This document shows positions 12,083-42,131 of a DNA stretch of 64,000 nucleotides, one piece after another (position 1 is the stretch's first letter; every line of letters starts with the position of its first letter). The stretch spans positions 1,984,001-2,048,000 of the forward strand of contig NZ_MASR01000001.1 in the NCBI RefSeq assembly GCF_001758195.1, read 5' to 3'. Source of the DNA: Pseudohongiella acticola (GTDB taxonomy: Bacteria > Pseudomonadota > Gammaproteobacteria > Pseudomonadales > Pseudohongiellaceae). The position numbers and the translations under genes are program-made. The notes below the pieces were generated by a model that was given only the letters and a program-made list of their open reading frames with translations, ran no database searches and was not told the origin of the DNA.

Positions 12083-12095
12083 CTGATCGTGCAGC

Positions 12096-25657: not shown

Positions 25658-26743
25658 CTACGCCTCGTCCAGCAATTGGTATATGCGGCGTATCGCCCGC
25701 ACATCGGCACCCGGTCCGCGAATCTGCGGGTAGTTACCACTGTGTGCGGTCATGTCGATTTCCGCCGCGGCCTGTTCATAGCTTAGCCCGCGCTGCTTGA
25801 GTGCACGGGTGTTGGCCCACAGGTCATCCAGATAGGCCTGCAGCATATCAATGCGTTCCTTGCCTTGTACCACACCGCCATGACCAGGCAATAACGTGGC
25901 AAAGTCCAGCGCCTTCAGGTTTTCCAACGTGGCGGGCCACTCATCGACATGGGCATCGCCCATATAAGGGAGAAATGGCACCATCAGGTCACCAGTGTAG
26001 ATAATTTTCTCTTCCGGCAGGAACACCACGACATCGCCGCCGGTATGGCCGCGGCCCAGGTGTACTATCTGAATTTCCCTGCCTCCACCACGCACGCTCT
26101 GGTAAATACTCATCGAGTCATCAATGGTGATATTAGGCGGTGTCGGCTCGATGCCAGCCAGTGAATTCAGGTGCGCCTGCTGTACAGCAATGCGGGCCTG
26201 CAACTGCACGCGTTCGTCGGTGTTTTCGGTGCTGGCCAGTTGCGCCTGCATCTGTTCTATCTGGCCCGGTACGCCTTCAGTGAAACTGATGAATGTGGAT
26301 TCTTCCAGTACATTGCCGCGTTCGCCACTGAGTTTTTCGCGGGTGTAGCGATGCCCGATAATTTCCACTTCCTGCGGGAACACCTGATTGCCATGAGCAT
26401 GATCAAAGTGGTAATGGGTGTTGATCAGGTAACGAACCGGCTTGGCACTGACGGATTTGATGGCGTCGATCAGGGCCATGCCGGCATTGGGAGACACATG
26501 TGAGTCTACGACCAGCAGATCATGTTCTCCTTCAATCAACATGGCATTGCTCATGACGTTGACTGCCCCGGTGCCAGTGACGTGGTAGATGCCCTCGCCT
26601 ACCGGTGTAAAGACGTGGCTGCGGGTTTCTATTGTGCCGGTTGGCGCGTTGTTCTGTGCCGTGCTCAGATTCACCAGCGTGAATACTGACGCAGCCATGG
26701 CCACGCCAATGGCGAGTGTTTTGATGCGGTTTTTGTTATTCAT
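25658..26743 (-). CDS. Secreted MBL-fold metallohydrolase
   Basis: A 361-residue protein with a signal peptide (about 1-29). The metal motif THYHFDHAHGN (HxHxDH, about 108-113), GRGHTGGD (about 232), IYTGDLMV (about 250) and LPGHGGV (about 285) make a complete MBL site. The central helical insertion (about 155-185, rich in Gln) is a feature of the group near quinoprotein relay MBL proteins. Convergent with the arsR operon, 8 bp apart; 25 bp downstream of the M48 gene. Confidence 0.87.
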   Translation of the reverse strand: MNNKNRIKTLAIGVAMAASVFTLVNLSTAQNNAPTGTIETRSHVFTPVGEGIYHVTGTGAVNVMSNAMLIEGEHDLLVVDSHVSPNAGMALIDAIKSVSAKPVRYLINTHYHFDHAHGNQVFPQEVEIIGHRYTREKLSGERGNVLEESTFISFTEGVPGQIEQMQAQLASTENTDERVQLQARIAVQQAHLNSLAGIEPTPPNITIDDSMSIYQSVRGGGREIQIVHLGRGHTGGDVVVFLPEEKIIYTGDLMVPFLPYMGDAHVDEWPATLENLKALDFATLLPGHGGVVQGKERIDMLQAYLDDLWANTRALKQRGLSYEQAAAEIDMTAHSGNYPQIRGPGADVRAIRRIYQLLDEA

Positions 26744-26768: not shown

Positions 26769-28238
26769 TTATTGTAGTATTTTTATCCATTCGCCCTGTT
26801 GCGGGGTGCCAATGGGGTAATAACCATTCAGCAGCCGCAGGGTTTCCTCGGGGTACTGTTGCACCGGACTGCGCGCTGCCAGTGCTGCCCAGCTAAAGCC
26901 CTGGGTCACCTGCACGTAACGCACGCGCAGTCCATTGGCGGCAGAGCGCTCATTGGCCTGGATTGGGCGGAACGTGCGCATGGAGGCAAACAGCAGGTCT
27001 TCCAGTTCATCGTCCGCTGTCGTTGTGTCGCTGATCTCGGCGCGTAAAACAAAGACACGCGGCCCCAGATAGAACACAGCAATGCGCTCGCGATTGCCAT
27101 CAGCATTGGTGTGCATGCCCGTGTGTCCCAGCAAACGGTACTGGTTCAGATTCTCTGATTGCTGCAGATCGGTGATACCCAGATTCTCGCGGATAAACAG
27201 CCGCGGCTCCTTGTTCTCACGCAGACGCTGCGCTTCTACCAGCATCATGGCGTTGTCCTGCGGGCTGAGCGCCTGCACCGTGGTGGTGGTTTCAACGATT
27301 TCCCAGTCATCCGGGAACACCATGGTGTAACTCAGCAGGTCCTGGTAATAGCGGTTACGGTCGCTGGCAACGCTGGTGTTTTCGCCGAACAACAGACCGT
27401 CAATATAACCCCGGAACACGTTATGATCACTTTCGCGGGCTTGATCGTCGGGCAGGTTACCTGCCTGCGCCACCGCCTGCTGCAGACGCACATCGTTGCG
27501 CGGGTGAGTGGTAAACAGGCCATGGTAGGTTGGCTGGCGCTGTGCCACACGCACATTAAAATCTTCCTGGTTTTTTAACACTGACAGGACATCGATCATG
27601 GCGCGCGGATTGTACCCGGCGTTATAAAGATACTCGGCGCCCAGGCTGTCTGCTTCCAGTTCGTTGTCGCGACCAAAACCACTGACACCGGCGGCAGCCC
27701 AGATGGAACCAATCTGCGCCAACTCGGAGCCTATATAGCCACTGCCGGTGGCCACAGCTGCCACGACGCCGCCAACGGTTGCTGCTGCATTGCCCAATCG
27801 GCCACGCGCCTGTTGCTGGATAGCATGGCGGGCGGTGATGTGACCGACTTCGTGTGCCAGCACCGCTGCCAGTTCGTCTTCGGATTTCAGGTAAAGCAGT
27901 AGCCCACGGTTGATATACACGTAACCACCGGGCAAGGCAAAGGCATTGATCTCCGGGCTGTCGATAACGGTAAAGGTGTATTCCAGATCACCGCGATGGC
28001 TGCCCTGCGCAACGCGTTGGCCAACCTCACTGACATAGTCGTTAATGCGCCGGTCCTCGACCACACGCATACTTGCCAGCACTTTTTCGTGTTCTTCTTC
28101 ACCTATTTCCAGTTCCCGCGACTCACTCATCAACACCAGATTGGGTTGACCGGTGGCCGGGTTGACGGCACACGCCTGCAGCCCCAGTATCATCACCAGC
28201 GTTGCTGACAGCAGCGGTGTTATGACTCGCACATTCAT
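26769..28238 (-). CDS. M48-family metalloprotease lipoprotein (BepA-like)
   Basis: A 489-residue protein with a lipobox (LQAC, about residue 22) after ATG 28238; an in-frame TTG at 28280 is unlikely. The M48 zinc motif HEVGHITARHA (HExxH) is near residue 130, and the third ligand in ELEADSLGAEYL near 185. After the peptidase domain comes a long region ending in a LysM-like NGYYPIGTPQQGEWIKI (about 467-483). BepA-type periplasmic proteases quality-control the outer membrane. It lies downstream of the envelope cluster in the same direction and may belong to it. Confidence 0.85.
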   Translation of the reverse strand: MNVRVITPLLSATLVMILGLQACAVNPATGQPNLVLMSESRELEIGEEEHEKVLASMRVVEDRRINDYVSEVGQRVAQGSHRGDLEYTFTVIDSPEINAFALPGGYVYINRGLLLYLKSEDELAAVLAHEVGHITARHAIQQQARGRLGNAAATVGGVVAAVATGSGYIGSELAQIGSIWAAAGVSGFGRDNELEADSLGAEYLYNAGYNPRAMIDVLSVLKNQEDFNVRVAQRQPTYHGLFTTHPRNDVRLQQAVAQAGNLPDDQARESDHNVFRGYIDGLLFGENTSVASDRNRYYQDLLSYTMVFPDDWEIVETTTTVQALSPQDNAMMLVEAQRLRENKEPRLFIRENLGITDLQQSENLNQYRLLGHTGMHTNADGNRERIAVFYLGPRVFVLRAEISDTTTADDELEDLLFASMRTFRPIQANERSAANGLRVRYVQVTQGFSWAALAARSPVQQYPEETLRLLNGYYPIGTPQQGEWIKILQ

Positions 28239-28286
28239 GAGCACTGGCCCCCTTCGTTCTGATATCGCGTGTTTGGGCAAAAGGCG

Positions 28287-28976
28287 TCAGTCGCCCTTAA
28301 CAAACTGCTTAAGCTGATCGGCCAGATTGTTACAGGCATTGGCTTCCACCCGCGCAATCAATGGAATGGGAACAAAAACCGCCGGCACATAGGACTGGCC
28401 GCTGGCATCGGCGCTGATGGTGCCGACCGAGGTGTGAGACGACACGTCCCATACCCGTGCCTCATAATTGGAGTCATCTTCCCAGGAGCCAAAACCAAAA
28501 CAGCCACCACCGCCGGGGCCAACAGCACACGAGATGGATCCCATTCGGTTGCTGGTTTCGGTCTGACCGTCCAGCCACACCATATAACGGATACCGAACT
28601 CCGACATTTTGTCGGTGACCAGCGGTTGCGCCATCAGTTGCTGCAGGTCTTCACTGCGCATGGGTGCTGTCCGTGGTTCAAACCAGGGAAACAGAGCGTC
28701 AACAAACACCTGCTCCGGCACTACAGTAATCGCATCATTGCCACGCCCCATGCGGTTACCGACACATTCGACAAAGTCGGCATGGGTCGAGTAGGCCGCG
28801 CCCTGACGGCGCCCAAGAATGACAATGGATTCACTGGAATCAATACCGGTGTCGCCCTGCCGGAACTCGTCAATGGTCGTGGTGGTGCAGGCGCCAAGGG
28901 TCATTCCGACAATCAGCATCACAATCAGGTAGTACCCTGTGCGCATCAGCCCTGCTCTGGTGTTGTTTGTTGCCAT
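28287..28976 (-). CDS. Predicted lipoprotein, 229 aa, end of envelope cluster
   Basis: The N-terminus is a signal peptide with lipobox LGAC (about residue 30). The mature part has a GGGGCFGFGSW segment (about 154) and paired beta stretches (IRYMVWLDGQTE, YEARVWDVSSHTSVGTISAD), similar in style to CsgG-like/penicillin-binding activator LpoB-like lipoproteins; the assignment is weak. CAGGAG precedes the ATG. It follows another lipoprotein gene by 30 bp. Confidence 0.72.
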   Translation of the reverse strand: MATNNTRAGLMRTGYYLIVMLIVGMTLGACTTTTIDEFRQGDTGIDSSESIVILGRRQGAAYSTHADFVECVGNRMGRGNDAITVVPEQVFVDALFPWFEPRTAPMRSEDLQQLMAQPLVTDKMSEFGIRYMVWLDGQTETSNRMGSISCAVGPGGGGCFGFGSWEDDSNYEARVWDVSSHTSVGTISADASGQSYVPAVFVPIPLIARVEANACNNLADQLKQFVKGD

Positions 28977-29006
28977 GCTGACTCCTGCCTTGCGGACGCT
29001 TGCGCT

Positions 29007-29657
29007 TTATTGCAAGCGAGGTTGTAACCAGTCCCGAACGTCCGGGACACTGGTAAAACTGATGGAGAAGTTTGACGCCAGATCCCGCAGAGCCGCCACC
29101 GCTGCATCATTGATTCCGCCCTCAGCGCTGCCAAAGGTCTCCTGTCCGGTTTTGCCATAAGCCGTCATCACCCAGTCGGCAATATAATCACCATCGGGAG
29201 CGGTCATGCGCATGTTGTACTTGATCCAGACTTCGTAAGAATCCAGACGTGTTTTTTGCGGCATGCCCAGCTGAAATTCATCAATATTGGGGATAAAGAC
29301 CGCGTCAACGCCGCGTTCATTCGCCATCGCCGGATCATCCAGCACCACCACCTGCTGAAACATGGCCGGCAACACCGTGTTGAACAGCTCCATGTGGGAA
29401 CTGCCGCTGTTGACCAGGTACTCGTCCTTGCCGGCATCGCTGCGCTCGGTGTAAACAAAATTCTGCAGGGCTTCACTGTAGTACACACCCAGCGTTAGTG
29501 GTAATGGCGGGATATTGGGTGATGGATAAGTGCCTTCGATGTCGACAGTGCGTGCGGCGCAGGCATTGAGCACAACCACGGCCACCAAAAGCAGGACAAA
29601 GGCGCGAGCATGGCGTCGCAACATGGAATTCTGGACTGGATTAAAATCGCTTCTCAC
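29007..29657 (-). CDS. Predicted lipoprotein, about 216 aa, envelope cluster
   Basis: A hydrophobic signal ends in lipobox LNAC. The mature part starts with a Pro-rich segment (YPSPNIPPLPLTLGVYYS) followed by an alpha/beta region (MFQQVVVLDDP, DAVFIPNIDEFQLGMP). GTG 29657 has GGAG 6 nt upstream; ATG 29624 would give the most canonical signal peptide (MLRRHARAF..). No named family is claimed; the fold pattern resembles lipoproteins that read out or anchor envelope machines. It lies 46-60 bp after the second VWA gene. Confidence 0.7.
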   Translation of the reverse strand: MRSDFNPVQNSMLRRHARAFVLLLVAVVVLNACAARTVDIEGTYPSPNIPPLPLTLGVYYSEALQNFVYTERSDAGKDEYLVNSGSSHMELFNTVLPAMFQQVVVLDDPAMANERGVDAVFIPNIDEFQLGMPQKTRLDSYEVWIKYNMRMTAPDGDYIADWVMTAYGKTGQETFGSAEGGINDAAVAALRDLASNFSISFTSVPDVRDWLQPRLQ

Positions 29658-29715
29658 TGACTGCTCCAATGCTGTTGTTATGTTGGTTTAGCTGAACAGT
29701 TGTCGTGCGTCCCGC

Positions 29716-30717
29716 TCACTGATAGGCGTTAAGTCCGACAAAGCTGCCACCGTTACGTTCGGCCAGTTCTCGCATCAACGTGGCAAAACGATACAGACTG
29801 TCGTGATAACGCGGATCCAGATCAAACAATACCGGAAATCCGACCGCGTGAATACGCATCAGACGATTGCCACTGGCATCGGCCGCGTTGATCCGGTCCA
29901 CGGTTTCGACCACCCGGGTGATGGAACCGCCGGGAAGAAAGTCATCCCCGAAGGTGTATATGCTCACGCGTTGGCCGGTCTGGTAGAAGGCACTGATGGC
30001 GCGGGTAATACCCTCCACCGGGCTGCTGTTGCTGAACGGCGCCCAGTTGCGCAGGGCGCTGATAATGGCCTGACGCCGCGCCGGCGTGTCGGGGATCCAC
30101 TGACCGCGATAATTGGGAAACATGTAATCGCCCATGTCATTCATGATCTGGATGCCTTTGACCTCGGGATACACGTCCAGTACTTCAGTGACCATTTCCA
30201 GCACACGGGGCCAGGCGTTATAAAACATACTACCTGAGGTATCGATCAGGAAGATAATGTATTCGCTGTCGACCGGAATGCCGCCGATCACATTATTGCT
30301 GCGGGTGAAGTCCTGACCAAGCAGGCGCTCCATTTCTGCCGTCAGTGACTGCCGGGCGATGGCCAGCTCGCTCTCCTCAACGGCGCGCTCTTCGGCCAGC
30401 TCAGTTGAGGTTTCGTAACGGCCCCGAATATTGGACATCTCACGCTCCAGCCGGGCCACACGCTCGCGGTAGGCGGACAGCTGTTCTCGGCGAGCATTGA
30501 GTTCGCGGTTCAGGGTCTGGGTTTCACCGCGGATATCGAACAGTGTCTGCTGCAGCTCGGCCACCGGTTGCTCAAGCTGTTGTGGTGCGTTTTCCAGCGT
30601 CACCGGGGCCGAGTTTTCGGTAATCATCAGCAGCAGAATGATGGCGCCAAAACCACAGGAAATGACGTCCAGAAACGCTATGGTGGCACCGTCTTCTTCG
30701 CGTTTTCGTTTTCTCAT
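29716..30717 (-). CDS. VWA-domain protein with ExbD-like TM helix (second copy)
   Basis: A 333-residue protein: a very basic N-terminus (MRKRKRE), one TM helix (about 13-33) carrying AFLDVISCGFGAIILL with Asp17 at the helix start, a coiled coil (about 45-130), and a VWA domain with the MIDAS motif DTSGS (about 158) and a later Thr/Asp region. The TM motif is shared with the first VWA protein, and the Asp resembles the functional Asp of ExbD/TolR/MotB stators. Expected topology: N-in, coiled coil and VWA in the periplasm. Its ATG is the last member of the 17-bp start-codon array at 30713-30807. Confidence 0.85.
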   Translation of the reverse strand: MRKRKREEDGATIAFLDVISCGFGAIILLLMITENSAPVTLENAPQQLEQPVAELQQTLFDIRGETQTLNRELNARREQLSAYRERVARLEREMSNIRGRYETSTELAEERAVEESELAIARQSLTAEMERLLGQDFTRSNNVIGGIPVDSEYIIFLIDTSGSMFYNAWPRVLEMVTEVLDVYPEVKGIQIMNDMGDYMFPNYRGQWIPDTPARRQAIISALRNWAPFSNSSPVEGITRAISAFYQTGQRVSIYTFGDDFLPGGSITRVVETVDRINAADASGNRLMRIHAVGFPVLFDLDPRYHDSLYRFATLMRELAERNGGSFVGLNAYQ

Positions 30718-30807
30718 GGCTGCTTCTCGCTCAAGGCTGTTTCTTGCTCATGGCTGTTTCTCGCTCACGGCTGTTTCTCGCTCATGGCTGTTTCTCGCTC
30801 ATGGCTG
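30713..30807 (-). repeat. 17-bp tandem repeat made of chained start-stop mini-ORFs
   Basis: Five and a half copies of a 17-bp unit (minus strand CAGCCATGAGCGAGAAA) lie directly before and across the start codon of the second VWA gene. On the minus strand start codons recur every 17 nt with first bases at 30802 (ATG), 30785 (ATG), 30768 (GTG), 30751 (ATG), 30734 (TTG) and 30717 (ATG, the VWA start). Each of the first five encodes a hexapeptide (MSEKQP or variants) whose TGA overlaps the next start codon. Variant bases at the start position all keep a usable start codon. Confidence 0.9.
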
Positions 30808-30820
30808 CAATTATCTCCGT

Positions 30821-31924
30821 TCATGGCCAGTCGCGCGCGGGGGTGATAAATGACCCTCCGCTGAGTACGCCCAACTGCCAATACGCAGCTGCGGCCGCCG
30901 GATCCCCTTCCATCGGTAGCAAGATGGTGTTGACCGGTATATTTGCCGGCATCGTATTCAATGCCTGCTGGTACAGTTCCAGCCGCTGCCGGGGGCTGAT
31001 GGTGGTGGCGTTGCTGCTGCGTGAGCCCTGCGTCGGCAGGCTGTCTGTGATCAGGTAAACATTGTCCGGTCGCGGGTTCATGGCCGCCACCGCCTCAAAG
31101 GCGCGCTGCAGATTGTTGCCACCACCGGGCACAGTAGACTGGACCGCCCTGACCACCTCATTCAGTTCATCGCGATCAGCAACTTCCAGCCAGCGCCCGT
31201 CTGTACCCGGCATGATGGCCTCTGCGCTTTCGTTGTAGCCGATGACCTGATACTGACTGACCAGCGGCAGCTGGCTGCTGATCCATTCCACGATACGCAC
31301 GGCGCGCTGCCATTTGGCTGACGCCAGTTTCGCGTCGTCGGACATGTTCCTGATGCGAATGATGTTGACCAGGCTGGCATCCAGCATGCTGGCCGACGTA
31401 TCAAGCAGGATCAGAATCCGGTTGCCGCCCAGGAACATGCCGGTCAGATATTGTCGGTCGCCATCACCGAGAAATTCACGGCTGCTGTCGCCCTGCTCTT
31501 CCACAGCACTGGTCTGCAGGCGCAATAGCTCTTCTTCCAGCGACTGGATATCGGCGCGCAGGTCTTCCAGGCTTTCTTCCGTTGCCATGGAGTTGCCTTC
31601 CAGTGCGGCGAGTTGTGCCATAAAGTCGTCTATATTGTTCTGTATGCGATCTGCCAGCCCTTGCGCTTCCACCACCTCAAGACTGATTTCGTCCAGCGTG
31701 TTGCGGACCTGAAACAGTTGCTCTTCGCCTTCCAGTACCTCTTCCTGCAACAGCCTGGCTTCGGCCGTCAGGTTTGGATCCACTTCATTGCGGTCTTCAG
31801 TTGCAGTGTGATCGAGAATCAGAAAGATCAACACCACAGCGCCGAAACCGCAGGACATCACGTCCAGAAACGCCAGGCCCATCGGGTTGACGCCAGCGCG
31901 TTTGCGTTTACGCCCGGCCATCAT
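30821..31924 (-). CDS. VWA-domain protein with ExbD-like TM helix (first copy)
   Basis: A 367-residue protein with the same plan as its neighbour: basic N-terminus (GRKRKRAG), one TM helix (about 15-37) with AFLDVMSCGFGAVVLIF and Asp21, a long acidic coiled coil (about 50-145), then a VWA domain with MIDAS motif DTSAS (about 175) and a further NVYLITDSLP strand (about 293). The start overlaps the end of the Hsp70-like gene by 17 bp. The stop TGA overlaps an ATG (30824) that could start the chain leading to the second VWA gene. VWA domains bind protein ligands through a metal ion. Confidence 0.85.
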   Translation of the reverse strand: MMAGRKRKRAGVNPMGLAFLDVMSCGFGAVVLIFLILDHTATEDRNEVDPNLTAEARLLQEEVLEGEEQLFQVRNTLDEISLEVVEAQGLADRIQNNIDDFMAQLAALEGNSMATEESLEDLRADIQSLEEELLRLQTSAVEEQGDSSREFLGDGDRQYLTGMFLGGNRILILLDTSASMLDASLVNIIRIRNMSDDAKLASAKWQRAVRIVEWISSQLPLVSQYQVIGYNESAEAIMPGTDGRWLEVADRDELNEVVRAVQSTVPGGGNNLQRAFEAVAAMNPRPDNVYLITDSLPTQGSRSSNATTISPRQRLELYQQALNTMPANIPVNTILLPMEGDPAAAAAYWQLGVLSGGSFITPARDWP

Positions 31925-33254
31925 GCACCCGTATCAACTGCAACACCGGATCATCACCCACGCTGAGTTGGTCGCCGGCACTCAGGGTCTGCCCCGGCGT
32001 GGCTGCCTTGGCGTTGATTAAAACAGACGCGGATGCCGACTTGATAACAATGCCTTCCACGGCAGGGGCCAGCACACACAGATCCTCGGCGGACGCGGCA
32101 TCGTTCAGACTGACAGTCGCCCCGGTGCTGGCCCGGACATAGATCGACGAGCGCAGCGGATAGGCGATGCCGTCGAGCAGAATATGACTGGCTGCCACAC
32201 GCTCCGGAATCACAGGTACGGCATCTGCTGTATTATTTACGCTAGCCGGTGATATGCGCCAGCTACTGATAAACGGTACATCGGTGCCGGTGCGGGTCAA
32301 GGTAGCACTGGCGTGTGAGCAGGCATTGGCCATGTTTTCACCGCTCAGCGGTGCCTGTTGGACCTGAAGCGTGGCTTCCAGCCCGGGTATGGCCGCCGCC
32401 CGCTCCGATATTAAAACAGGTAGCGGGCCGTCACTCGAAAGTGCCGACAGTGCCTGCAGCTGTTGTGTGATACGGCGAAATACTGGCTGCAGACTGTCCA
32501 CCATTTCGGCAACGCTGACGCGCGCCTGATGTGTGGTCTTGTCGGTGGTGATACTGACCAGGAAATCCGCCTGCCCGCCACGGATCTGCAACAGATAGTC
32601 AGGCAATTCGTTGTACAGGTGCTGCTCCCAGAATGCGCTGTGCTGCGGATTAAATCGCGACTGTTGGATAAAGGCGTCATTGATGACCTGAACCAGCGCG
32701 TTGGCGATATTGCTCCAGCCCGCGCCTTGCACCACCACGGCCTGTTCACGTTTAAGCTGGTGCTGATCCTGGCTGAGCAGAGTGAGACTGAACTGGTGCA
32801 GCTGCATGTCGGCAAACACCACCCGCGAATGATCAGCCATATGCGACTTTGCATAGAACAGCCCGGCGTCCATCATGGCCGCCGCACGAAACGGCGTCTG
32901 TGCTACCACACCACCCAGAATGGCAAGCTGCTCGCGGCTGAAGCTGCCGGGCACCGCGATCGTCACATCGCCTTCGAAGTCACTGGCCTGTGCAATATGC
33001 TGGAGGTGCGCGTGGACAACATCGGCGTTGTTTCGGAAGTGCGCCAGCGGGCGCGTCAGTGGCGCCATGCTGAGACGGTACCAGAATTCGTTATGCGTAT
33101 TGACCGGATGCAGGCGGCTCTGTTCAGCGGCACTCTGGCCAAACTGGATGCTTCCGCCAAGGCTCAGTGCAAAGCCGGGGCTGCTGCTGACCAGATCGCC
33201 GTCCTGGTACAGGTTAATGGTGTTGTCATTTAACTCGAGAACGGCGCTGGTCAT
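31908..33254 (-). CDS. Hsp70-like (actin-fold) pseudo-ATPase with FHA-like C-terminal region
   Basis: A 448-residue soluble protein. Residues about 1-290 follow the Hsp70 ATPase plan: VLELNDNTINLYQDG at the N-terminus (phosphate-1 position), VTIAVPGSFSREQLAILGGV (equivalent of TVPAxFxxxQR, about 97-116), an A..MMDAGLFYA segment (equivalent of NEPTAAAL) and VVFADMQLHQFSLTLL in place of DLGGGTFD. The Gly-rich phosphate loops are lost, so ATP hydrolysis is doubtful. The last 100 residues end AGDQLSVGDDPVLQLIRV, like an FHA or similar beta sandwich. The start overlaps the ExbB-like gene's stop by 4 bp. Confidence 0.65.
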   Translation of the reverse strand: MTSAVLELNDNTINLYQDGDLVSSSPGFALSLGGSIQFGQSAAEQSRLHPVNTHNEFWYRLSMAPLTRPLAHFRNNADVVHAHLQHIAQASDFEGDVTIAVPGSFSREQLAILGGVVAQTPFRAAAMMDAGLFYAKSHMADHSRVVFADMQLHQFSLTLLSQDQHQLKREQAVVVQGAGWSNIANALVQVINDAFIQQSRFNPQHSAFWEQHLYNELPDYLLQIRGGQADFLVSITTDKTTHQARVSVAEMVDSLQPVFRRITQQLQALSALSSDGPLPVLISERAAAIPGLEATLQVQQAPLSGENMANACSHASATLTRTGTDVPFISSWRISPASVNNTADAVPVIPERVAASHILLDGIAYPLRSSIYVRASTGATVSLNDAASAEDLCVLAPAVEGIVIKSASASVLINAKAATPGQTLSAGDQLSVGDDPVLQLIRVHDGRA

Positions 33255-34096
33255 ACTGGCTGTACCGCTTCACTGTGATTATCCTGCGGTGTGCTGCGCC
33301 CCGGTACCTGTAAGTAGTTAATCAGGTGATCATCACAATAGGCCTGGCTGTCCATCACCAGACGATCCTGCACCAGCGACAATTGATACAACAGGAACAT
33401 CAGCACAATGCTGGTGACCAGTGCCACGAAGGTTGAATTAAAGGCCACGCCTAGGCTGACGGTGACACCCAGAATGTCGCCACTGACAGCCTGGTGCGCC
33501 TGACCCAGCGCGGTACCGATACCACGCACGGTGCCCAGGAAGCCGATCGACGGAATCGCCCAGGCGATATAGCGGACAATGGCCAGTTCACTTTCCAGAC
33601 GTTCGGATTCATTGTCGCAAATGTCGCGCACGGTGGCCGATACGTCCTGCACCTCTCGCGTTGTACCAAACCGGTGCAGCCCGGCAAGCAGTGCGCGCGG
33701 CAACAGAAACCCCCGTTCTTTCTCCGGCAGCGCCTGAACCGGTCGGGCAAAGTGCCGGGTGTCTTCAGGCAGGATACTGGTGCCCTCGGACACCGGCAGC
33801 AGCTCCCGATCCAGCAGTGAGCGTTCACGCATGGTGCGCACGGTTTTCATGCCGATGATGGACAGCGCCCAGAAGAACAGAATGATACAGGTTTCCTGCT
33901 CGAAATCGCGCAGCACGATATACATGGAACGATCGGGCACGTAATCTTCGTCCGCTTCCTGCTGAATGGTCTGCTGCTGTTGAATGATATCGGCGTTGGG
34001 CCTGATCACGGCGACATAGACGGCATGCACCACAATCACAACGATGATGAGTGCAAAAATCTGATAGATGACTTCAGACAGGTATTTTTGTTTCAT
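33251..34096 (-). CDS. ExbB/TolQ/MotA-type proton channel subunit
   Basis: A 281-residue membrane protein with TM segments at about 9-30, 70-88, 180-203 and 212-240. The family core SIGFLGTVRGIGTALGQA (about 185) and LGVTVSLGVAFNSTFVALVTSIV (about 208-230) match the TM2/TM3 region of ExbB/TolQ, where the conserved Thr and Pro-Gly-Leu-LGT motif occur. ATG 34096 with AGGGA 7 nt upstream is chosen over GTG 34102. There is no ExbD gene next to it; the partner helices are probably those of the two VWA proteins. Role: proton-driven motor stator. Confidence 0.85.
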   Translation of the reverse strand: MKQKYLSEVIYQIFALIIVVIVVHAVYVAVIRPNADIIQQQQTIQQEADEDYVPDRSMYIVLRDFEQETCIILFFWALSIIGMKTVRTMRERSLLDRELLPVSEGTSILPEDTRHFARPVQALPEKERGFLLPRALLAGLHRFGTTREVQDVSATVRDICDNESERLESELAIVRYIAWAIPSIGFLGTVRGIGTALGQAHQAVSGDILGVTVSLGVAFNSTFVALVTSIVLMFLLYQLSLVQDRLVMDSQAYCDDHLINYLQVPGRSTPQDNHSEAVQPV

Positions 34097-34157
34097 GCGC
34101 ACGTCCCTGATCAGGTTAAACGGTTAATCGGTTTACAGCGTTTTCTGGCTTACAGAC

Positions 34158-34472
34158 TCAGATGTCCACCGGGAAGGAAACACCGGAGTCCTGCGAAATC
34201 TGCTCTGACGGAATAAAACGACCCGGCCCCTGATTCTGTGAACCATCAATGGGCTGGCTGTCGATGTCGGGCAGCGCCGCGTCAGCGGCCGCCTGTTGGT
34301 CATCGTTGTTTTGTTCATCAACGTTCTGTTCTTCACTGGTCTGTTCTTCACTACCCTGGTCTTCATCTGCCTGGTCTTCAATGATGTCGGCACCCGCCGG
34401 CTGCGCGTGTATCGCCGTCAGCGGCATCAGCAGAATCAGACTCAGGACACACATAACACGCGTTAGGCTCAT
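34158..34472 (-). CDS. Acidic, Gln/Glu-rich secreted protein, 104 aa
   Basis: A signal peptide (about 1-23, cleaved after IHA) precedes a low-complexity acidic region (EDQADEDQGSEEQTSEEQ, about 30-65) with many Asp, Glu, Gln and Asn. No fold is expected over most of the mature part. ATG 34472 overlaps the stop of the PEGA/FGE gene (GAGTAACATG) and has GGGAG upstream. Probably a periplasmic linker or charged spacer of the envelope cluster. Confidence 0.72.
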   Translation of the reverse strand: MSLTRVMCVLSLILLMPLTAIHAQPAGADIIEDQADEDQGSEEQTSEEQNVDEQNNDDQQAAADAALPDIDSQPIDGSQNQGPGRFIPSEQISQDSGVSFPVDI

Positions 34473-34473
34473 G

Positions 34474-36570
34474 TTACTCTCCCAGGTAGCGGGCGACACG
34501 GAAACCCAGATCGTTGCGGGCCTCCTCGCCAAAATCACGATAGGACGCGCGCAGCTCGGTCATGCTGCCATGCGCCCAGCTTGAGCCCTTGATAGTGCGG
34601 TAAGTGCCATCTTCGGGTCCCAGCGGATCAGTCACCTTGACGGAGCTCAGACCGCTGACCGCGCCATAATAATCATGCACCCACTCTGATACGTTACCGG
34701 CCATATCGAACAGACCTTGAGCATTGGCTGCGAAGGCGCCGACATTGGATGTTCCGGGAATGCCATCGTTGTAACCTCGCAGAATCTGGCCCAGAAAGTC
34801 GCTGGTGGACTCGTCCGCGAAGTTGCCGGTCTCGGCTGGCGGCGGCCAGCTTTCGCCCCAGGTAAATCGGGTGATGCCGTTCTGGCCATCCGATCGCGCA
34901 GCCCATTCCCATTCGGCTTCTGAAGGCAGGCGGTAACCATTGGCATTGGCATTGAACCCGGTGATCGTGCCGTCTGCCACGTTATAAAACGGTGTCAGTC
35001 CTTCCTGCGCGCTCAGCCAGTTGGTGTATAGCGCTGCATCCTGCCAGCTCACCTGCACGGCTGGCTGGTTAGGGCGGTCCAGTGACTGCCCCTGAAGCGT
35101 GCCGGAGGCATGGTCAGCCCGGAAGCGTTTAAACTGGGCATTGGTCACCGGGCGCAATGACAGATAGAACGGTTTCTCCATGCCGACATCGCGCAGCGTT
35201 TCGTTGGCGCGTCGACCAGGCTCACGACGTGAAGACCCCATGGTGAACCCGTAGGGATAAAACAGATGCAGAGTTTGACCACCGGCACTGGTAATCACCG
35301 GTTCAATGGCATCCAGTCGCGCCTGCTCTTCAGTTTTCAGGCTGACTCGAATTTCCTGATCCAGGCCAGGCCTTGAGGTGAAGTTGGCGGCGTAAGGCAC
35401 GTAGCCTTCACGCCGAATCTCGATGCGCTGGCTGGCGGCGATCAGATCGACGGTCTGGTTGGCGGCACCCTTGAGCTCGCCGTCAACATAAAGCTGTGCG
35501 TCAGACGGCTGCGCAATAATCCTCACCGGATTGGTAATGGGGTCAAGTGGCACCGTCATATCACGTTCTTCGTCGGATCCCGTTGTGATACGTCTCACAG
35601 CGGTATCGTAACCGGTTCTGAACAACCTGATTTCGTGTTCCTGTTCTGGTGGCAGGGATACTTCAAGCGGTGTCTGGCCCCGGTACTGGCCATTGATGGT
35701 GACATTGGCGTTGCCCGGCGTGGAGCGAATAAATACCAGGCCGTCGGCCGCTTCCAGCGTCACAGACGGCAATTGCTGATCGGCTCCGGCCATGACCACC
35801 AGTTCTTCCTGCCAGGCTTTATAACCGCTGCGTTTGATGGTGACTTCATAGGCACCCTGCAGCAATTCCATTTGCGCGGGCGTCACACCCTGCACCTGGC
35901 CGTTAACGATGATGTCCGCACCCGCGGGCCGCGACGTAAAACTGATATCAGCCCAGGCTGGTGCCAGTGTGGCGGTCAGCGATTGTTCAACCTGACGACC
36001 TTCAATCTCCACCTGTTCCCGATAAGGCAGGTAGCGTTCGCGCTGAACCTGTAGTTCGTAACTGCCTGGCGGCACTTCTGCATCCACCAGGGGCGATTCA
36101 CCGAGGTCGACTCCGTCCAGCAACACGCGTGCCCCGCTTAAGGCTTCCCCTTCAGCATCACGGGTGGTGACACTGACCAGGCCGGGCAATGGCGTCAGGC
36201 TAAAGGGATGCGTTTGTGCCTGTTCCGGGCCGACAACCAGCGCTACCTCGCTGTCATAATAACCTGGAGCGCTGAGCTGCAATTGATAGTCTCCCTGCCT
36301 CATCAGATAGCGTGGACCCACTTTGACGGCAAAACCATCAACAACCTCAATGGTCGCTGCCATTGGCGAAACTTCGACAAATACGGAACGTGCAGTCAAT
36401 ACAAACCCGGCAGCGCCGGCAGCCAGCGCCAGACCCACCACCACGATGGCATGGTACCAGCGCGGTCGCCAGCTGAAGCGTCGACCGGGTGGTGGCGGCG
36501 GACTGAAGTCGACCGGTGTGATGCTGTCCGGGGCGTCATGCTGACCGGGGTTGTTGCCATTGTCCTGCAT
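34474..36570 (-). CDS. PEGA-repeat membrane protein with cysteine-free FGE-sulfatase domain
   Basis: A 698-residue protein: cytoplasmic Pro-rich tail, one TM helix (about 40-60), four to five PEGA repeats (about 75-430, each with a xxPxGAxVxVDGxxxGxTP-like core such as RPAGADIIVNGQVQGVTP), and a C-terminal FGE-sulfatase domain (about 440-698) with YRLPSEAEWEWAAR, DMAGNVSEW and NDLGFRVAR. The active-site cysteines of formylglycine-generating enzymes are missing: the GGSW region reads IKGSSWAHGSMTELRASYRD, and the whole protein has no Cys. It is thus more likely a binding or structural domain than an oxidase. The TPR-protein gene ends 4 bp upstream. Confidence 0.87.
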   Translation of the reverse strand: MQDNGNNPGQHDAPDSITPVDFSPPPPPGRRFSWRPRWYHAIVVVGLALAAGAAGFVLTARSVFVEVSPMAATIEVVDGFAVKVGPRYLMRQGDYQLQLSAPGYYDSEVALVVGPEQAQTHPFSLTPLPGLVSVTTRDAEGEALSGARVLLDGVDLGESPLVDAEVPPGSYELQVQRERYLPYREQVEIEGRQVEQSLTATLAPAWADISFTSRPAGADIIVNGQVQGVTPAQMELLQGAYEVTIKRSGYKAWQEELVVMAGADQQLPSVTLEAADGLVFIRSTPGNANVTINGQYRGQTPLEVSLPPEQEHEIRLFRTGYDTAVRRITTGSDEERDMTVPLDPITNPVRIIAQPSDAQLYVDGELKGAANQTVDLIAASQRIEIRREGYVPYAANFTSRPGLDQEIRVSLKTEEQARLDAIEPVITSAGGQTLHLFYPYGFTMGSSRREPGRRANETLRDVGMEKPFYLSLRPVTNAQFKRFRADHASGTLQGQSLDRPNQPAVQVSWQDAALYTNWLSAQEGLTPFYNVADGTITGFNANANGYRLPSEAEWEWAARSDGQNGITRFTWGESWPPPAETGNFADESTSDFLGQILRGYNDGIPGTSNVGAFAANAQGLFDMAGNVSEWVHDYYGAVSGLSSVKVTDPLGPEDGTYRTIKGSSWAHGSMTELRASYRDFGEEARNDLGFRVARYLGE

Positions 36571-36574
36571 GTGC

Positions 36575-38071
36575 TCAGGGCCTGTTGACTGCCGCGACCT
36601 CTTCGTTGCAGCGGATAGTTAAAGAGTTCAGATCGTTACCGAACCCGACGACAAATTCTTCCCGCACATCGCGGTAACCGGGGCGCGTGCCTACCGCGAC
36701 ATAACGACCGGGTGTCAGCATCAAGGTGGTTTCGGAGAATGTCCCCAGTTCTGCGACCTGATAGACGGTGACCTGAGTCGCATTGTCTGATCGAAGGGTG
36801 ACTTCCAATGGAATCTGCATTTGTTGTAACAGCTCCTCCATGGCATCCAGCTGCTGTGCCAGGCGTTCACCGACCTGACCCTGCTCGGCCAGCAAATCGG
36901 CTTCCAGATCACGGCCAATCCGGTAGACTTCCTGCGCTTCGTTGTAGGCTGCCTGATCGGACAGACGCATGGGCTGGTCAATGTTGACCGCCAGCAGACG
37001 GTCAAGTTGCAGGCGTCGGGCCGAGTAGTCTTTGCCTTCCAGCGCAAACACCAGATTACTGTCCAGCGCCAGCACCGCATCGTAAGCAGTGACGGCCTGT
37101 TCCCATTCCTCATTGGTTTCAAGGGCTTCAGCCTGTGCCTGTAGATCGGCGATTCGGGCCAGGGTGATTTCTTCCCGGGTCTGGGAAATGGCTTCAGTGG
37201 CTTCGTCGGAGCCGGGCTTGATGCGTTGTGCGCGCTGGAAGGCGGCAATAGCCTCGTCCGCCTGCCCCTGTTGCAGCAGGGCAAAACCTTCGGACATGAC
37301 ATTGGTGTAATTGGCATCGGCTATCATCTGACGGTTCTGTGTCACCAGGGCAGCGGCGCGTTCATGCGCGCCGTCCAGCGCGGCGGCCTGTTCAAACTGC
37401 TGCTGGGCGACCTGCAGATCGCCTTCTTGCTGCAGGTTTTCACCACGCGCGATCAGATTTTCCACTTCATCCAGCGTCTGCGCACGCGCCAGTCCCTGCT
37501 GCGCTCGGGCGCTGTCCGGACCCAAGCGCAACGCCAGTGTAAACCTCTCCAGTGCCAGCGCTGAATCTTGATCAATAATGGCCGCCTCGCCATCACTTAT
37601 CAGATCATCAAGCACTTGAGGTGCGCGCTCCTGCAGACGCGATAACGCCAGGTCACTTTCCTGATAGGCCAGTGCTGCCTGCACAAACTCGGTGTTGCGA
37701 TAGAACTCATCTCCGCGGCGCGCTGCGGCGACGGCGGCTTCATAATCGCTTTGTGCCCATTGAGTAACTGCCATGTCGTCCAGGGCCTGTTGCCGCTCCA
37801 GCAGGCTGGCCAACGCATCCTGCGCTTCGCGGCGTTGCCGTGAGCGCTGAGCCTCATCAAAGGGAGAAATCCGGGGACCCTCCGAGGCGGACGGAGTGGT
37901 AGACGCGACAATGGGTGCTGACTCGGTGCGCGGCACCAGCGGTAATTCATACTCCTGCACCAGGCGAGGCAGAACAAACACCACGGCCAGCGCCAATAAC
38001 ATCAGCACCGCCAGCGCCACCCACACCCAGCCCGAAATTTTATCCCCGTTCGCGGTCTTACCACCCTGCAT
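36575..38071 (-). CDS. Membrane-anchored TPR/coiled-coil protein, 498 aa
   Basis: A single TM helix (about 14-36) follows a short N-terminal tail. The remainder is helical with TPR-like units: YEAAVAAARRGDEFYRNTEFVQAALAYQESD, ALERFTLALRLGPDSARAQQGLARA, LLQQGQADEAIAAFQRAQRIKPGSDEA and EQAVTAYDAVLALDSNLVFALEG. The last 90 residues are beta-rich (MQIPLEVTLRSDNATQVTVYQVAELGTF) and resemble a PEGA-like domain. It is probably the periplasmic scaffold of the cluster. The PEGA/FGE gene starts 4 bp after its stop. Confidence 0.8.
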   Translation of the reverse strand: MQGGKTANGDKISGWVWVALAVLMLLALAVVFVLPRLVQEYELPLVPRTESAPIVASTTPSASEGPRISPFDEAQRSRQRREAQDALASLLERQQALDDMAVTQWAQSDYEAAVAAARRGDEFYRNTEFVQAALAYQESDLALSRLQERAPQVLDDLISDGEAAIIDQDSALALERFTLALRLGPDSARAQQGLARAQTLDEVENLIARGENLQQEGDLQVAQQQFEQAAALDGAHERAAALVTQNRQMIADANYTNVMSEGFALLQQGQADEAIAAFQRAQRIKPGSDEATEAISQTREEITLARIADLQAQAEALETNEEWEQAVTAYDAVLALDSNLVFALEGKDYSARRLQLDRLLAVNIDQPMRLSDQAAYNEAQEVYRIGRDLEADLLAEQGQVGERLAQQLDAMEELLQQMQIPLEVTLRSDNATQVTVYQVAELGTFSETTLMLTPGRYVAVGTRPGYRDVREEFVVGFGNDLNSLTIRCNEEVAAVNRP

Positions 38072-38108
38072 ACTGTTTAGTCCTAAACTGCCGTTTATCC
38101 ACTACGGA

Positions 38109-39302
38109 TCAAACACCACCTGTTTCAGTCAGGTAAATTTCCATCAGGATGTCACGCCATTGGTCATACTGCTCTTCAACGGTACCAGTGAGCATGATTG
38201 TGCGGTCGTCCAGTTCAATTACTTTGGGGGCGATTTCTGACTGCAGGGATTCACCCAGCTCCTGCAGCGCGGCGATGTGCATGCGCGCTTCTGCAGTGCG
38301 ATCAAAACCACTGCGTACCAGGTAGGCGCCTGCACCGACGCCGACAATGCCAGCCGTTTGCGCAGCGGCGCTGCTCTGACTGCCAACGGCAGCAATACCA
38401 CCGACAATGGCAGCAGCACCGGCGATAAAGCGACGACGCGCCGAACGTTCGGCTTCATCCAGCGCCATGGTTTCGTGGTAACTCTGTTCACGCCAGGCGT
38501 CGTAGGGACCACGCATCTCCCGTGTGTAGGTCGCGTAATAATCCTGCACGGTATCAACAAACAGGTTGTCTCGTTCGCGGATATCACGGATGCGCCGTAG
38601 TGACGGATCATTCTCGGCCGGTAGCCTGGCGACGCGCGTAATGCCGCGATCGTTGGTGGTGACATAGGAACCAAAAATGTCCGGCGCAAAGTCAGCAGCA
38701 AATTTTAGTTCGGAAACAGTGCGGATATTGCGAATCTGCTGCGCATCCAGATTCTCCTGCACGTACACCAGCAGATCATTGGCGATGGTGTTATAGACTA
38801 CCTGAAAGGGGTCATGCAGCTGGCGCTGGGTCTGGTCGTAGCTGTACTGACTGATGTGTTCTTCGTACAGGCGGGTATACCATTCGCGCCCGGTGGAGTC
38901 GGTCACCGTTACTTTGACAATCATACCTTCACCGTCGGACAGCAGGATCTGACCTTCCAGGAAAATATCCATCACGCTATTGTCCGATGGCAGCACCCGC
39001 ACTGCGCCCCAGTTGGCAGAGCGCTGCAATGTGTCTGCCATCAGATAAGGTGCGTAACGCGATTCGGCGCGGCGGATTTCAAAGTTGGTGCGATCCAGAT
39101 CACCACGGTCGACTTCGTCGATACCCGGATCAAATACCATGACCCCTACGTCCATCAGCAATGACTCGTCCTGCGGCGTGGCATTCTGTACCACCGGTAC
39201 AAATTCGGTGGTTTTCACTGACGTGGTCGAACAACCCGTCAGCGCCATCACCGACACCAGGAACAACGTCATTGTATTTCTCATCATCACCCTGATCATC
39301 AC
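38109..39302 (-). CDS. Predicted lipoprotein, about 397 aa, envelope cluster
   Basis: A signal peptide with lipobox ALTGC (about residue 24) precedes an alpha/beta region (VGVMVFDPGIDEVDR, about 51-65, then ADTLQRSANWGAVRVLPSD) that is reminiscent of lipoproteins with a GldH/CsgG-like half; a hydrophobic Gly/Ala segment (FIAGAAAIVGGIAAVGSQSSA, about 289) follows. The start overlaps the stop of the Ser-rich lipoprotein gene (TGATG). An internal ATG at 39284 or 39287 with AGGG upstream may be used instead. No family is assigned firmly. Confidence 0.75.
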   Translation of the reverse strand: MMIRVMMRNTMTLFLVSVMALTGCSTTSVKTTEFVPVVQNATPQDESLLMDVGVMVFDPGIDEVDRGDLDRTNFEIRRAESRYAPYLMADTLQRSANWGAVRVLPSDNSVMDIFLEGQILLSDGEGMIVKVTVTDSTGREWYTRLYEEHISQYSYDQTQRQLHDPFQVVYNTIANDLLVYVQENLDAQQIRNIRTVSELKFAADFAPDIFGSYVTTNDRGITRVARLPAENDPSLRRIRDIRERDNLFVDTVQDYYATYTREMRGPYDAWREQSYHETMALDEAERSARRRFIAGAAAIVGGIAAVGSQSSAAAQTAGIVGVGAGAYLVRSGFDRTAEARMHIAALQELGESLQSEIAPKVIELDDRTIMLTGTVEEQYDQWRDILMEIYLTETGGV

Positions 39303-40543
39303 TCTGCACCCGTTATTTCAAGGCCGGTGTATCGGCGATACTCATCCCACAATGCTTCGCGTAGTTCCGGGTCAGGCTCGCGCAGCGCCGCTTCACGAAT
39401 TTGACGTGCCACGACATCGTCGCCGCCGCCCGGAGGAATATCATCCGGGACCGGGAATGTCTCACGCTGTTCTCCTGCCGGGCCACCATTAACGCCCCCC
39501 ACCGAACCGCCGGAACCGCCCGCCTGAGGTCCACGGCCATCGCCGCCGGGAAAACCGCTGACGCCGCTGACACCGGCCGTCTGTACACCGGTCACACCCG
39601 GCAATGAGCCCGAGCCGCCATCGCCGCCGCTGCCCTGGCCGCTGTCTTCGTCATACAGTCCTGCGGGATCGTCTCCGACCTCGTTGGCGCGACGCTGGGC
39701 GCGGCTGCGTTCAGCCAAAATCAATCCGTCGAAGTCACCGTAAGCACCACCGAGTTCGCCATCCAGAACGGCAACGCGTTGCGAGGCTGTCATTACGCCT
39801 GCACCGCCGCCCGCTGCACTGCCAGCGCTGCCCTGGCCCGCTGACGCCTGACCGCTACTACCCTGACCTGTGCCACTCTGACCCGCGCTGCCCTGGCCAG
39901 TGGTGCCCTGACTCGCACCGCCCTGCCCCGGTGATTGTCCGCCTGCGCCGGTGCCGGCGGTTGACGCCGGAGGAATGCGATTCAGGCCACCGCTATTGCT
40001 GCGATCGCCATAGGCTTCCAGACCACCACTGCCTACCGTGGAACCGCCTGCGGCTGTGCTGCCCGCGGCACCACTGGCACTGTCAGTGCCTGGCGCACCC
40101 GGACGTCCGCTGGCGGGCATGACACCACCGACTGCGGCGGCTGTGCCTCCTGACGAAGAACTGCGACCGCCGGAGAAATCAGGCAATCCGGACGATGAAG
40201 CGCTGCCGCCACCGGAACTGGCTCCCGCGCTGCTCGCCTGTGAGCCTGATGATGAGCTCGACGATGAACTGGAGGCAGACTGCGATCCTGAAGAGCCACT
40301 CGACGGCATTGAAGGCATGGAAGGGGATGACGATGATGATGACGGCATCGACGACGAGCTACTGGATGACGATGACGACGAGCTGCTGGACGAACTGCTT
40401 GATGACGAGGACGAAGATGAAGACGACGGCATCTGCGGCATGCTGCTGGAGGATTGCTGAGACTGCTGCGTGGATTCACACGCGCTGAGCAGCAGCGCAG
40501 CAACGCTCAGGCTTAATAGAATTCGGCTTCGTGGCATATTCAT
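39299..40543 (-). CDS. Poly-Ser / Gly-rich low-complexity lipoprotein, about 414 aa
   Basis: A signal peptide ends in lipobox LSAC (about residue 23 from ATG 40543). The next 80 residues are almost only Ser with some Met, Pro and Gly, followed by a long Gly/Ser/Gln/Ala-rich part with repeats of TGQGSAGQ type (about 190-250). Only the last 60 residues look folded: REAALREPDPELREALWDEYRRYTGLE. Such sequence suggests an extended flexible tether on the outer membrane. The antisense strand gives a false acidic reading frame here. ATG 40543 has GGAG upstream; 40564 is an alternative. Confidence 0.8.
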   Translation of the reverse strand: MNMPRSRILLSLSVAALLLSACESTQQSQQSSSSMPQMPSSSSSSSSSSSSSSSSSSSSSSSSSSMPSSSSSSPSMPSMPSSGSSGSQSASSSSSSSSSGSQASSAGASSGGGSASSSGLPDFSGGRSSSSGGTAAAVGGVMPASGRPGAPGTDSASGAAGSTAAGGSTVGSGGLEAYGDRSNSGGLNRIPPASTAGTGAGGQSPGQGGASQGTTGQGSAGQSGTGQGSSGQASAGQGSAGSAAGGGAGVMTASQRVAVLDGELGGAYGDFDGLILAERSRAQRRANEVGDDPAGLYDEDSGQGSGGDGGSGSLPGVTGVQTAGVSGVSGFPGGDGRGPQAGGSGGSVGGVNGGPAGEQRETFPVPDDIPPGGGDDVVARQIREAALREPDPELREALWDEYRRYTGLEITGAE

Positions 40544-40637
40544 CTTCTCTGACTCCAACCGCACATCGCAGTGTCTTGAGTTTACCGTAATAAAGACCGG
40601 CTAACGGCATCATTATTGCGTACACGTTTTCTCGCCT

Positions 40638-42131
40638 TCAATTTTCCTCCAGCTCTCTATAGTAGGGAAAGCGGTAGACCAGGCCGTCAACCCGGGCGGC
40701 TTCACCCTCCCGAATGATGGGACGCATTCGGCTGTCACGCAGCGCACCTATCTGATGACGCTGCATGCTGACATCGTCTTCCGGCCAGGACTCTACAATG
40801 TCGACATTAACGGCGCGGCCGTACTGATTGATATCAAACTCCATGACAACATACGGCATGTTCGATGACGTCGTCATGTCAACTGCCTGTTTCGGCTCGC
40901 TCGAGCCGGCGTCTTCCGGCTGCGAAGCTGGCTCTCTCTCATCTGGCCCCGCCTCATCTACAGTGGCATCGGCCACCTGAATATCGCGTTTGCGCACCGG
41001 CCCGCGGGTTGGTTGCCGTGTGGGTTCAAATCTCGGCAACAGAACAATGCGATCAAATACTTGCTGTTTAAGCGCCTCGTCTTCATTCTGCATATTGAGC
41101 CAGGCACTCTCATAGACATCAAATGACGCATTGCGGCGCTCAAACAGCAGGTACCAGTCAGCAAGATCGAGAATCGCGTTGGTATGCGCTGCCAGTGCCT
41201 GGTCGCGCTCTTCGCCGACAATGCCGGCCGCTTCCACCCTGGCCAGCCGCGCCGCCCGCATCTGCAGAATTTGCTCCAGTGCATATTCCCCCTGCAGGAA
41301 CGGGTTGTTATGGCGTCGGTAACGCCGGTCAGTGACTTCATTCACCCAATTGTCGTCGACAAGCCGGACAATGCTGAATTGTGACTGCTGTCTGTCCTGT
41401 GCGCCGGAGCGCGCCATCAGCCATGCCAGATAGGCCAGGCGCTCAAGCATTGCCTCTCGGGACTGTTTCCTCAACGCCTCATCCTGGTCCACAATTGTCA
41501 GTGCAACACTGTAGAGATGGAAGGCATCAACCAGCCGGCTGGCCGGAAAATCACCTACACGGCGCCAGAACGCGTCGATGTTCCACTGGGCAAAGGTTTC
41601 CAGTGCCGGAATCAGGGCCGGATCGTCAACAGCTCTGGCACGGCTGTGAACGTAAAACAGATACTGCTGCAGTTCGTCGGCCTCAGACCATTGATCCAGC
41701 GCCAGATGACTTTCAATCTGCATTTCAATGGCATTGACCTGCTGCAGGCTGAACAGACCGTGATTGACCCGACTGACATGCACTGCCCGTTCCAGCAGGG
41801 CAATGGCTTCAACGTGGTCTCCGTTTTCCTGCACGTGGCGGGCCAGACTCAACGTGGATTCGGCAATATCCGGATGCCAGGTGTCACCGCTACCTTCAAG
41901 CGTCTCGATCGACTCCTTCAAATCGGTCAGGTCTGTCAGTTCGCGCAGATCCTGTGGCTCCGCAATGGTCTGCATGGGACTCAAATTGCTGGCCCAGCCC
42001 TGACCGGGATCGTTGCTTTCGGCTGCCATGATGGAAGGCGCCCAGCATAACGCTATCGCCAGGGACAGGGTTGGCAATGGACGGATCGACGTGTGAATCG
42101 ACGCTTTTACGCAGATGGTTCGGAAACACAT
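40638..42131 (-). CDS. TPR-like secreted protein with TonB C-terminal domain
   Basis: A 497-residue protein with a signal peptide (about 1-36, AMAA), a helical repeat region (about 60-360), a Pro/Glu/Ser-rich linker (about 375-410) and a C-terminal TonB_C domain (about 415-497): PYVVMEFDINQYGRAVNVDIVESWPEDD.. and SRMRPIIREGEAARVDGLVYRFPY match the V-x-F-x-I-x-x-x-G-x-x and R-F/M-x-P pattern. Unlike TonB it has no N-terminal TM, but a cleaved signal. It is the first gene of the minus-strand envelope cluster and the likely transcription start side, divergent from mutM. Confidence 0.82.
   Translation of the reverse strand: MCFRTICVKASIHTSIRPLPTLSLAIALCWAPSIMAAESNDPGQGWASNLSPMQTIAEPQDLRELTDLTDLKESIETLEGSGDTWHPDIAESTLSLARHVQENGDHVEAIALLERAVHVSRVNHGLFSLQQVNAIEMQIESHLALDQWSEADELQQYLFYVHSRARAVDDPALIPALETFAQWNIDAFWRRVGDFPASRLVDAFHLYSVALTIVDQDEALRKQSREAMLERLAYLAWLMARSGAQDRQQSQFSIVRLVDDNWVNEVTDRRYRRHNNPFLQGEYALEQILQMRAARLARVEAAGIVGEERDQALAAHTNAILDLADWYLLFERRNASFDVYESAWLNMQNEDEALKQQVFDRIVLLPRFEPTRQPTRGPVRKRDIQVADATVDEAGPDEREPASQPEDAGSSEPKQAVDMTTSSNMPYVVMEFDINQYGRAVNVDIVESWPEDDVSMQRHQIGALRDSRMRPIIREGEAARVDGLVYRFPYYRELEEN

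Follow-up and report, generated by a model that had tools for sequence, protein, structure and literature searches.

An ExbB-like channel with two putative VWA partners in a recurrent proteobacterial gene block

What does an ExbB-like channel work with when the gene for its expected ExbD partner is absent from the operon? The question is raised by 13 packed genes of Pseudohongiella acticola, on the minus strand at positions 26769-42131 of the window (the whole stretch of 64,000 nucleotides analysed, contig NZ_MASR01000001.1, 1,984,001 to 2,048,000), with intergenic gaps of -17 to +103 bases. Read from 42131 to 26769, the genes are TonBC, SerC, Lp397, TPR, PEGA/FGE, Acid, ExbBL, Hsp70L, VWA1, VWA2, Lp220, Lp229 and M48; none of them is an ExbD, TolR or MotB gene. 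An original prediction, made from the DNA letters, had placed an ExbB-like channel here with two transmembrane (TM)-anchored VWA proteins where ExbD would be expected, and this we confirm; its Hsp70-like and PEGA/FGE parts, and a parts list that spans the envelope, are supported as well. The answer that we favor, with confidence somewhat better than even, is that the operon encodes a putative trans-envelope motor of the 5:2 type, driven by the proton motive force, in which a heterodimeric VWA axle would act on outer-membrane lipoproteins.

The channel and its two VWA proteins

All features of the block given below are on the minus strand. ExbBL (33251..34102) belongs to the core and is assigned to the MotA/TolQ/ExbB family by its match to Pfam MotA_ExbB (50.1 bits, above the cut-off of 22.9). 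Its hydrophobic stretches number four, or three at a stricter cut. Two threonines are invariant (116/116 each) among 117 open reading frames (ORFs), one of which was dropped for its length: Thr191 (33530..33532), which aligns with the GTV in the TolQ of the same genome, and Thr224 (33431..33433), which aligns with a Thr in the last TM helix of that TolQ. Both presumably serve in the pore. Such a role for threonines in this channel family is described in passages of Williams-Jones et al. (2025; PMC12204202). Among solved structures, no sequence relative of ExbBL is found at E 0.01.

VWA1 (30821..31924) and VWA2 (29716..30717), also core, are built alike: each has a TM anchor, a coiled coil and a VWA domain with residues of the metal ion-dependent adhesion site (MIDAS) type. 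Each TM helix carries an invariant aspartate, Asp21 of VWA1 (31862..31864; 113/113) and Asp17 of VWA2 (30667..30669; 110/110), as counted over 115 and 111 ORFs with two and one dropped, respectively. The neighbors in the TM motif are kept less strictly (Cys 106/113 in VWA1 and 104/110 in VWA2; VWA2 Gly24 102/110). The MIDAS-type residues of both proteins are conserved in every cell of the tally except one. The distance from the TM aspartate to the MIDAS is nearly fixed, with a median of 154 in VWA1 (interquartile range 151-154, range 119-156) and 142 in VWA2 (interquartile range 142-142, range 117-146). The region between them gives weak matches to coiled-coil families, and about 95 residues as a single helix would span some 14 nm. 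Compared with solved structures, VWA2 matches coiled coils and, at E 0.18-0.24, integrin I-domains; no ExbD stands among the Pfam matches shown for either protein. A lipobox pattern in 79/111 VWA2 ORFs was rejected as a mark of a lipoprotein, the SCG within the TM motif being enough to account for it. A search for plasmid-borne copies of VWA2 gave no match at E 0.001.

The original prediction would have been refuted by a gene order not conserved beyond this genome, and it withstood that test. A scan of genome contigs with ExbBL gave 68 near loci, many of which end within the block. There tblastn found ExbBL in 68, Hsp70L in 67, VWA1 and PEGA/FGE in 65 each, TPR in 61, Lp220 and Lp229 in 60 each, and M48 and Lp397 in 58 each; Acid matched in 61, some perhaps by chance, as the protein is of low complexity. 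VWA2 matches lie in 65/68 loci, five of which (L032, L034, L042, L052, L069) fall on VWA1, leaving 60/68 proper. Profile searches of 40 distant regions, some cut by contig ends, found VWA2 in 40, ExbBL and VWA1 in 39 each, PEGA/FGE in 35, TPR in 34, Lp397 in 32, Hsp70L in 27, Acid in 23, Lp220 in 20, Lp229 in 17 and M48 in 13. The absence of a family from the VIA lists was not counted as exclusion. The closest named records among those fetched are Pseudohongiella and allied gammaproteobacterial metagenome-assembled genomes.

Over whole genomes, the VWA2 profile matches 94/390 of the host's order, which is about a quarter of those sampled, 31/369 of its class (three of them, G475, G478 and G486, with a partial or weak match) and 16/398 of its phylum, 13 of the 16 being from one family outside the class. 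ExbBL (E<=1e-25) and VWA2 (E<=1e-5) pick out identical sets of 94 order genomes, the lists having been compared by eye. Lp397 (E<=1e-10) is found in 27/369 class genomes, 25 of which also have a VWA2-profile match; in G676, which has Lp397 only, the contig breaks off within VWA1. Copies of the block occur across the host's class and also in one proteobacterial family outside it.

Gene order was scored on up to ten genes, with absences allowed and Acid, SerC and TonBC unscored, in 118 loci: the window, the 68 near loci, 39 of the distant ones and ten more, nine of these from the extra family (G260 contributes two loci; L178, L080-L138 and L179-L192 are left out). The order is kept in 106/118. 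Nine loci were not judgeable: in seven the sequence runs out no more than 150 bases from the last matched ORF, in L042 it does so within 503 bases and the VWA1 frame ends prematurely, and L147 (G600) has ExbBL on another contig. Outside the 118, the block is rearranged in G224 and G244, where several genes, ExbBL and Lp397 among them, lie on the other strand. Seven genes, SerC, Lp397, TPR, PEGA/FGE, ExbBL, VWA1 and VWA2, form the core because their order or presence is kept in the loci, SerC being found by its tail motif; Hsp70L, Acid, M48, TonB_C-like, Lp220 and Lp229 are additions to it.

Putative partners toward the outer membrane

Lp397 (38109..39302) is a core lipoprotein with an N-terminal domain of the CsgG/PelC/FlgT/TolB-D1 type followed by a Gly/Ala-rich hydrophobic stretch. 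Its neighbor SerC (39299..40564), also core, is a Ser/Gly-rich disordered lipoprotein (lipobox by eye) with a conserved C-terminal motif, probably helical (39302..39421). Since the low-complexity body hides the gene, tblastn matches SerC in only 27/68 near loci; a profile of the tail, built from 23 sequences partly out of the same loci, detects it in 93 of 99 Lp397-bearing loci. Of the six others, two, L164 and L175, are second-copy loci, and in four (L040, L048, L154, L159) Lp397 lies where the stretch ends. Second, diverged copies of ExbBL and VWA2 occur in G105, G157, G260, G280 and G332, and the second-copy loci fetched (L162, L164, L166, L175) also hold Lp397, TPR and PEGA/FGE.

Two further core proteins are anchored in the inner membrane. 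The TPR protein (36575..38071) has one N-terminal TM helix and a C-terminal stretch that looks PEGA-like by eye, with no Pfam PEGA match there. Could these parts form a Tol-like apparatus, tethering or constricting the outer membrane, with Lp397 in the place of TolB and SerC in that of Pal? The TPR protein, the TolB-D1-like fold and a lipoprotein with a conserved tail would all suit it, but no Pal/OmpA-type family is among the block's Pfam matches, and tolQ, tolR, tolA and the start of tolB were recognized by eye elsewhere in the host genome, where pal was not searched for. We consider this reading improbable.

PEGA/FGE (34474..36570) joins TM-anchored PEGA repeats to an FGE-fold domain. Near the C-terminus, where FGE enzymes have their catalytic cysteines, 108 aligned sequences show no conserved Cys; in the last 260 residues (n=106), 18 have no Cys and 88 a single one, the conserved Cys lying upstream. 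By this cysteine criterion, judged on sequence, the domain is best described as a pseudo-FGE.

The FGE fold brings to mind the GldKLMN motor of the type IX secretion system. The gene orders are similar: an FGE-fold gene, the channel, then long-stalk genes. The block could thus be read as a counterpart that drives export or surface movement, with the FGE-fold protein as GldK, ExbBL as GldL and VWA1/VWA2 as GldM, although GldM is not known to have a VWA domain. The FGE domain does match GldK (84.4 bits) and, in the PDB, PorK (6.5e-9); yet 84.4 bits is far below the GldK cut-off of 350, formylglycine-generating enzyme is closer in the PDB (2.1e-16), and a lipobox pattern is present in only 8/111 PEGA/FGE ORFs, whereas GldK is an outer-membrane lipoprotein. 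GldKLMN has an FGE-fold protein in the operon too and would share the 5:2 motor, and passages of PMC9389320 describe the long periplasmic shaft that GldM forms; it differs in belonging to Bacteroidetes, and no gene of the secretion translocon is among the block's Pfam matches. A GldKLMN counterpart is quite improbable.

A proposed motor and its precedents

The motor reading that we prefer draws on gene content, order and co-occurrence, on the conservation of residues and spacing, and on a model that has the Hsp70 fold; we infer the occupancy of the pore, the stoichiometry, rotation, contacts, the formation of a ring and the output. ExbBL would form a five-fold channel whose pore holds one VWA1 and one VWA2 helix, a heterodimeric axle replacing the dimer of ExbD, TolR or MotB, with each helix supplying a proton-binding aspartate. 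A coiled coil whose length hardly varies would carry the axle on to a pair of MIDAS-bearing VWA heads close to the outer membrane, and the heads would turn or pull on a lipoprotein assembly of Lp397 and SerC. The Lp397 domain may resemble that of ring-forming outer-membrane lipoproteins; SerC could be a disordered tether with its conserved tail as a docking peptide. The TPR and PEGA/pseudo-FGE proteins would make a periplasmic scaffold or collar, and the Hsp70-fold/FHA-like protein may regulate the machine from the cytoplasm or help to assemble it, in many lineages only. Going further, the system might be a machine class of its own: a 5:1:1 proton motor whose fixed-length VWA axle drives a CsgG/FlgT-fold ring, tethered by SerC and tuned by Hsp70L, for surface export or movement. 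We offer this extended version tentatively and regard it as doubtful.

Several observations weigh against the motor. The conservation counts are inflated by the kinship of the sequences and overstate their independence. Aligned with the genome's TolR/ExbD, the VWA TM helix gives no significant match (hhalign 1.6%), so that the likeness is one of motif. The fold likeness of Lp397 is modest, its model having a pLDDT of 72.2 and no Foldseek match at E<=0.001, and its CsgG/TolB-like domain is a common one. Gene order is changed in 3/118 loci (L145, L146, L159), and six VWA2-positive class genomes (G475, G478, G600, G698, G700, G703) are without Lp397 at E<=1e-10. Finally, ExbD proteins with no channel gene beside them exist. 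The host genome, with seven MotA_ExbB and four ExbD-family matches that by eye include Tol, Ton-like, ExbBD and Mot-like sets (one channel locus, L006, lying outside the view), has one such lone ExbD (G000:C1:1284254-1284634, L010), with no ExbB within its 3.4 kb locus. In 20 genomes with the system, picked mostly for few contigs and surveyed at a neighbor distance of 2.5 kb, 13 have one ExbD without another ExbB within that distance; in three of these genomes that ExbD is 11-15 kb away from ExbBL.

It might then be that the partner of ExbBL is an ExbD from another locus, with the VWA proteins as clients. Lone ExbD in the 13 genomes and in the host speaks for this. In the other 7/20 genomes, however, every ExbD has another ExbB within 2.5 kb, and the TM aspartate of the VWA proteins is invariant. 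Three of the seven (G158, G333, G351) have two adjoining ExbD beside one long and one short ExbB; the lone ExbD of other genomes may therefore correspond to the second ExbD in a cluster of this kind. In the 118 loci, an ExbD/TolR-like ORF was seen in only two (L148, L149), beside a tol-like block about 7-12 kb from the motor genes. A separate ExbD that pairs with the channel would refute the original prediction; given the lone ExbD in the 13 genomes, and its absence from the seven, we call such pairing unlikely. With the VWA proteins as mere clients, the reading is very improbable.

The same prediction had called the system undescribed, which is not supported for the motor itself. In PMC12204202, TolQ-like motors with heterologous, Asp-bearing vWA pairs and no TolR/ExbD were proposed in 2025 as TPH-vWA motors, with AlphaFold 3 models, Idiomarina and Verrucomicrobia sets and a function unknown there. 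Set alongside by these described features, the block agrees: a TolQ-like gene beside paired TM-anchored vWA genes, the TM Asp, no TolR/ExbD nearby, and an occurrence in Proteobacteria. The section text on TPH-vWA names no PEGA/FGE, SerC, Lp397, Hsp70-like or M48 partner and gives neither co-occurrence counts nor a stalk length. In passages of a 2026 review (PMC12905483) the term vWA does not occur, and no account of the full gene set was found in literature coverage that excluded preprints and most subscription papers. The motor is already known as a proposal; the whole machine is not described as far as the literature was searched. To the short published vWA-axle proposal the block adds a defined list of parts, a set of invariant residues and a stalk whose length hardly varies, and it offers direct tests of how a 5:2 motor transfers force to the outer membrane and of the axle as a heterodimer.

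Other 5:2 motors are treated in passages of PMC9389320 and PMC12505986. TolQRA-Pal and ExbBD-TonB have the channel family, the pore Thr and the TM Asp in common with the block, but here VWA stalks replace TolR/ExbD, the other partners differ and no TolA/TonB-type transducer is recognized. AglRQS of Myxococcus likewise has one MotA-like and two MotB-like proteins with TM Asp, but AglQ/S carry TolR-like peptidoglycan-binding domains, according to passages of PMC9389320. ZorAB of Zorya pairs a MotA-family channel with a partner, but a ZorA model reaches no better than E 0.013 on ExbBL, and 0.0054 on the VWA2 coiled coil; Zorya was rejected, as was a defense system in general, the PADLOC matches being weak and falling for the most part on coiled coils (the best, LmuB on VWA1, at E 0.00079). 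Ton, Tol, GldKLMN and Zorya are analogues of the block, not its homes.

Accessory genes and variants

Hsp70L (31908..33254) lies next to the channel gene. It has no TM segment, and its model has the fold of an Hsp70 nucleotide-binding domain; by sequence its matches to solved structures are weak. The phosphate loops are degenerate: the loop motifs of Hsp70 are not seen in an alignment of 91 sequences. Where the substrate-binding domain of Hsp70 would be expected, the C-terminus gives weak FHA-type matches. An FHA-like end invites the view that the system is a sensor or gated channel, its VWA heads reading the state of the envelope and gating a proton leak or signaling inward through Hsp70L. 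A distant single-VWA variant, L178 of G478 (7625-12091, minus), is in keeping with this: an ExbB-like channel and a TM-anchored VWA protein with an LD motif sit with an FHA protein (21.1 bits against Pfam FHA, whose cut-off is 20.7) and, by eye, a PP2C-type phosphatase and a trypsin-like protease that ends in an FHA-like stretch. L178 may be a phospho-regulated relative. Yet Hsp70L is found in only 27/40 distant loci while the motor genes persist, and a near-fixed stalk with a set of outer-membrane lipoproteins better fits mechanical reach. We think the sensor unlikely and prefer the motor.

TonBC (40638..42131) is secreted and TPR-like, and its C-terminus bears a weak likeness to TonB_C. The original prediction had made it a TonB-like transducer, which is not supported: the score against Pfam TonB_C is 14.2 bits, below the cut-off of 24.6, no TonB_C match is among the Pfam matches of the block, and the gene is patchy (48/68 near loci by tblastn; 12/40 distant, of which three, L151, L154 and L157, run in the opposite direction and may be different genes). 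The remaining accessory genes encode Acid, a small secreted acidic protein whose start was re-set to an inner ATG (34158..34472), the lipoproteins Lp220 (29007..29669) and Lp229 (28287..28976), and an M48 peptidase lipoprotein (26769..28280). Among solved structures, sequence matches are weak for Lp397 and Lp220, and none is found for Lp229 at E 1. In 18 aligned Lp229 sequences, four cysteines after the lipid Cys are invariant, which suggests disulfides.

Promoter-like sites in the block (7 vs a shuffle mean of 8.5) and terminator-like sites (16 vs 12.9) are uninformative. Upstream of the block, on the other strand, lies a mutM-like gene. At its other end, an MBL-fold gene (25658-26743 of the window) that lies 25 bases past M48 was matched in only 10/68 near loci; it is a peripheral neighbor. 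A decaying block is seen in G572 (L206, 6373-9189), a genome with Lp397 only: no ExbBL or VWA match lies within the 19.9 kb fetched, a stop interrupts Lp397, and TPR is in fragments, one of them with an N-terminus that by eye is transposase-like.

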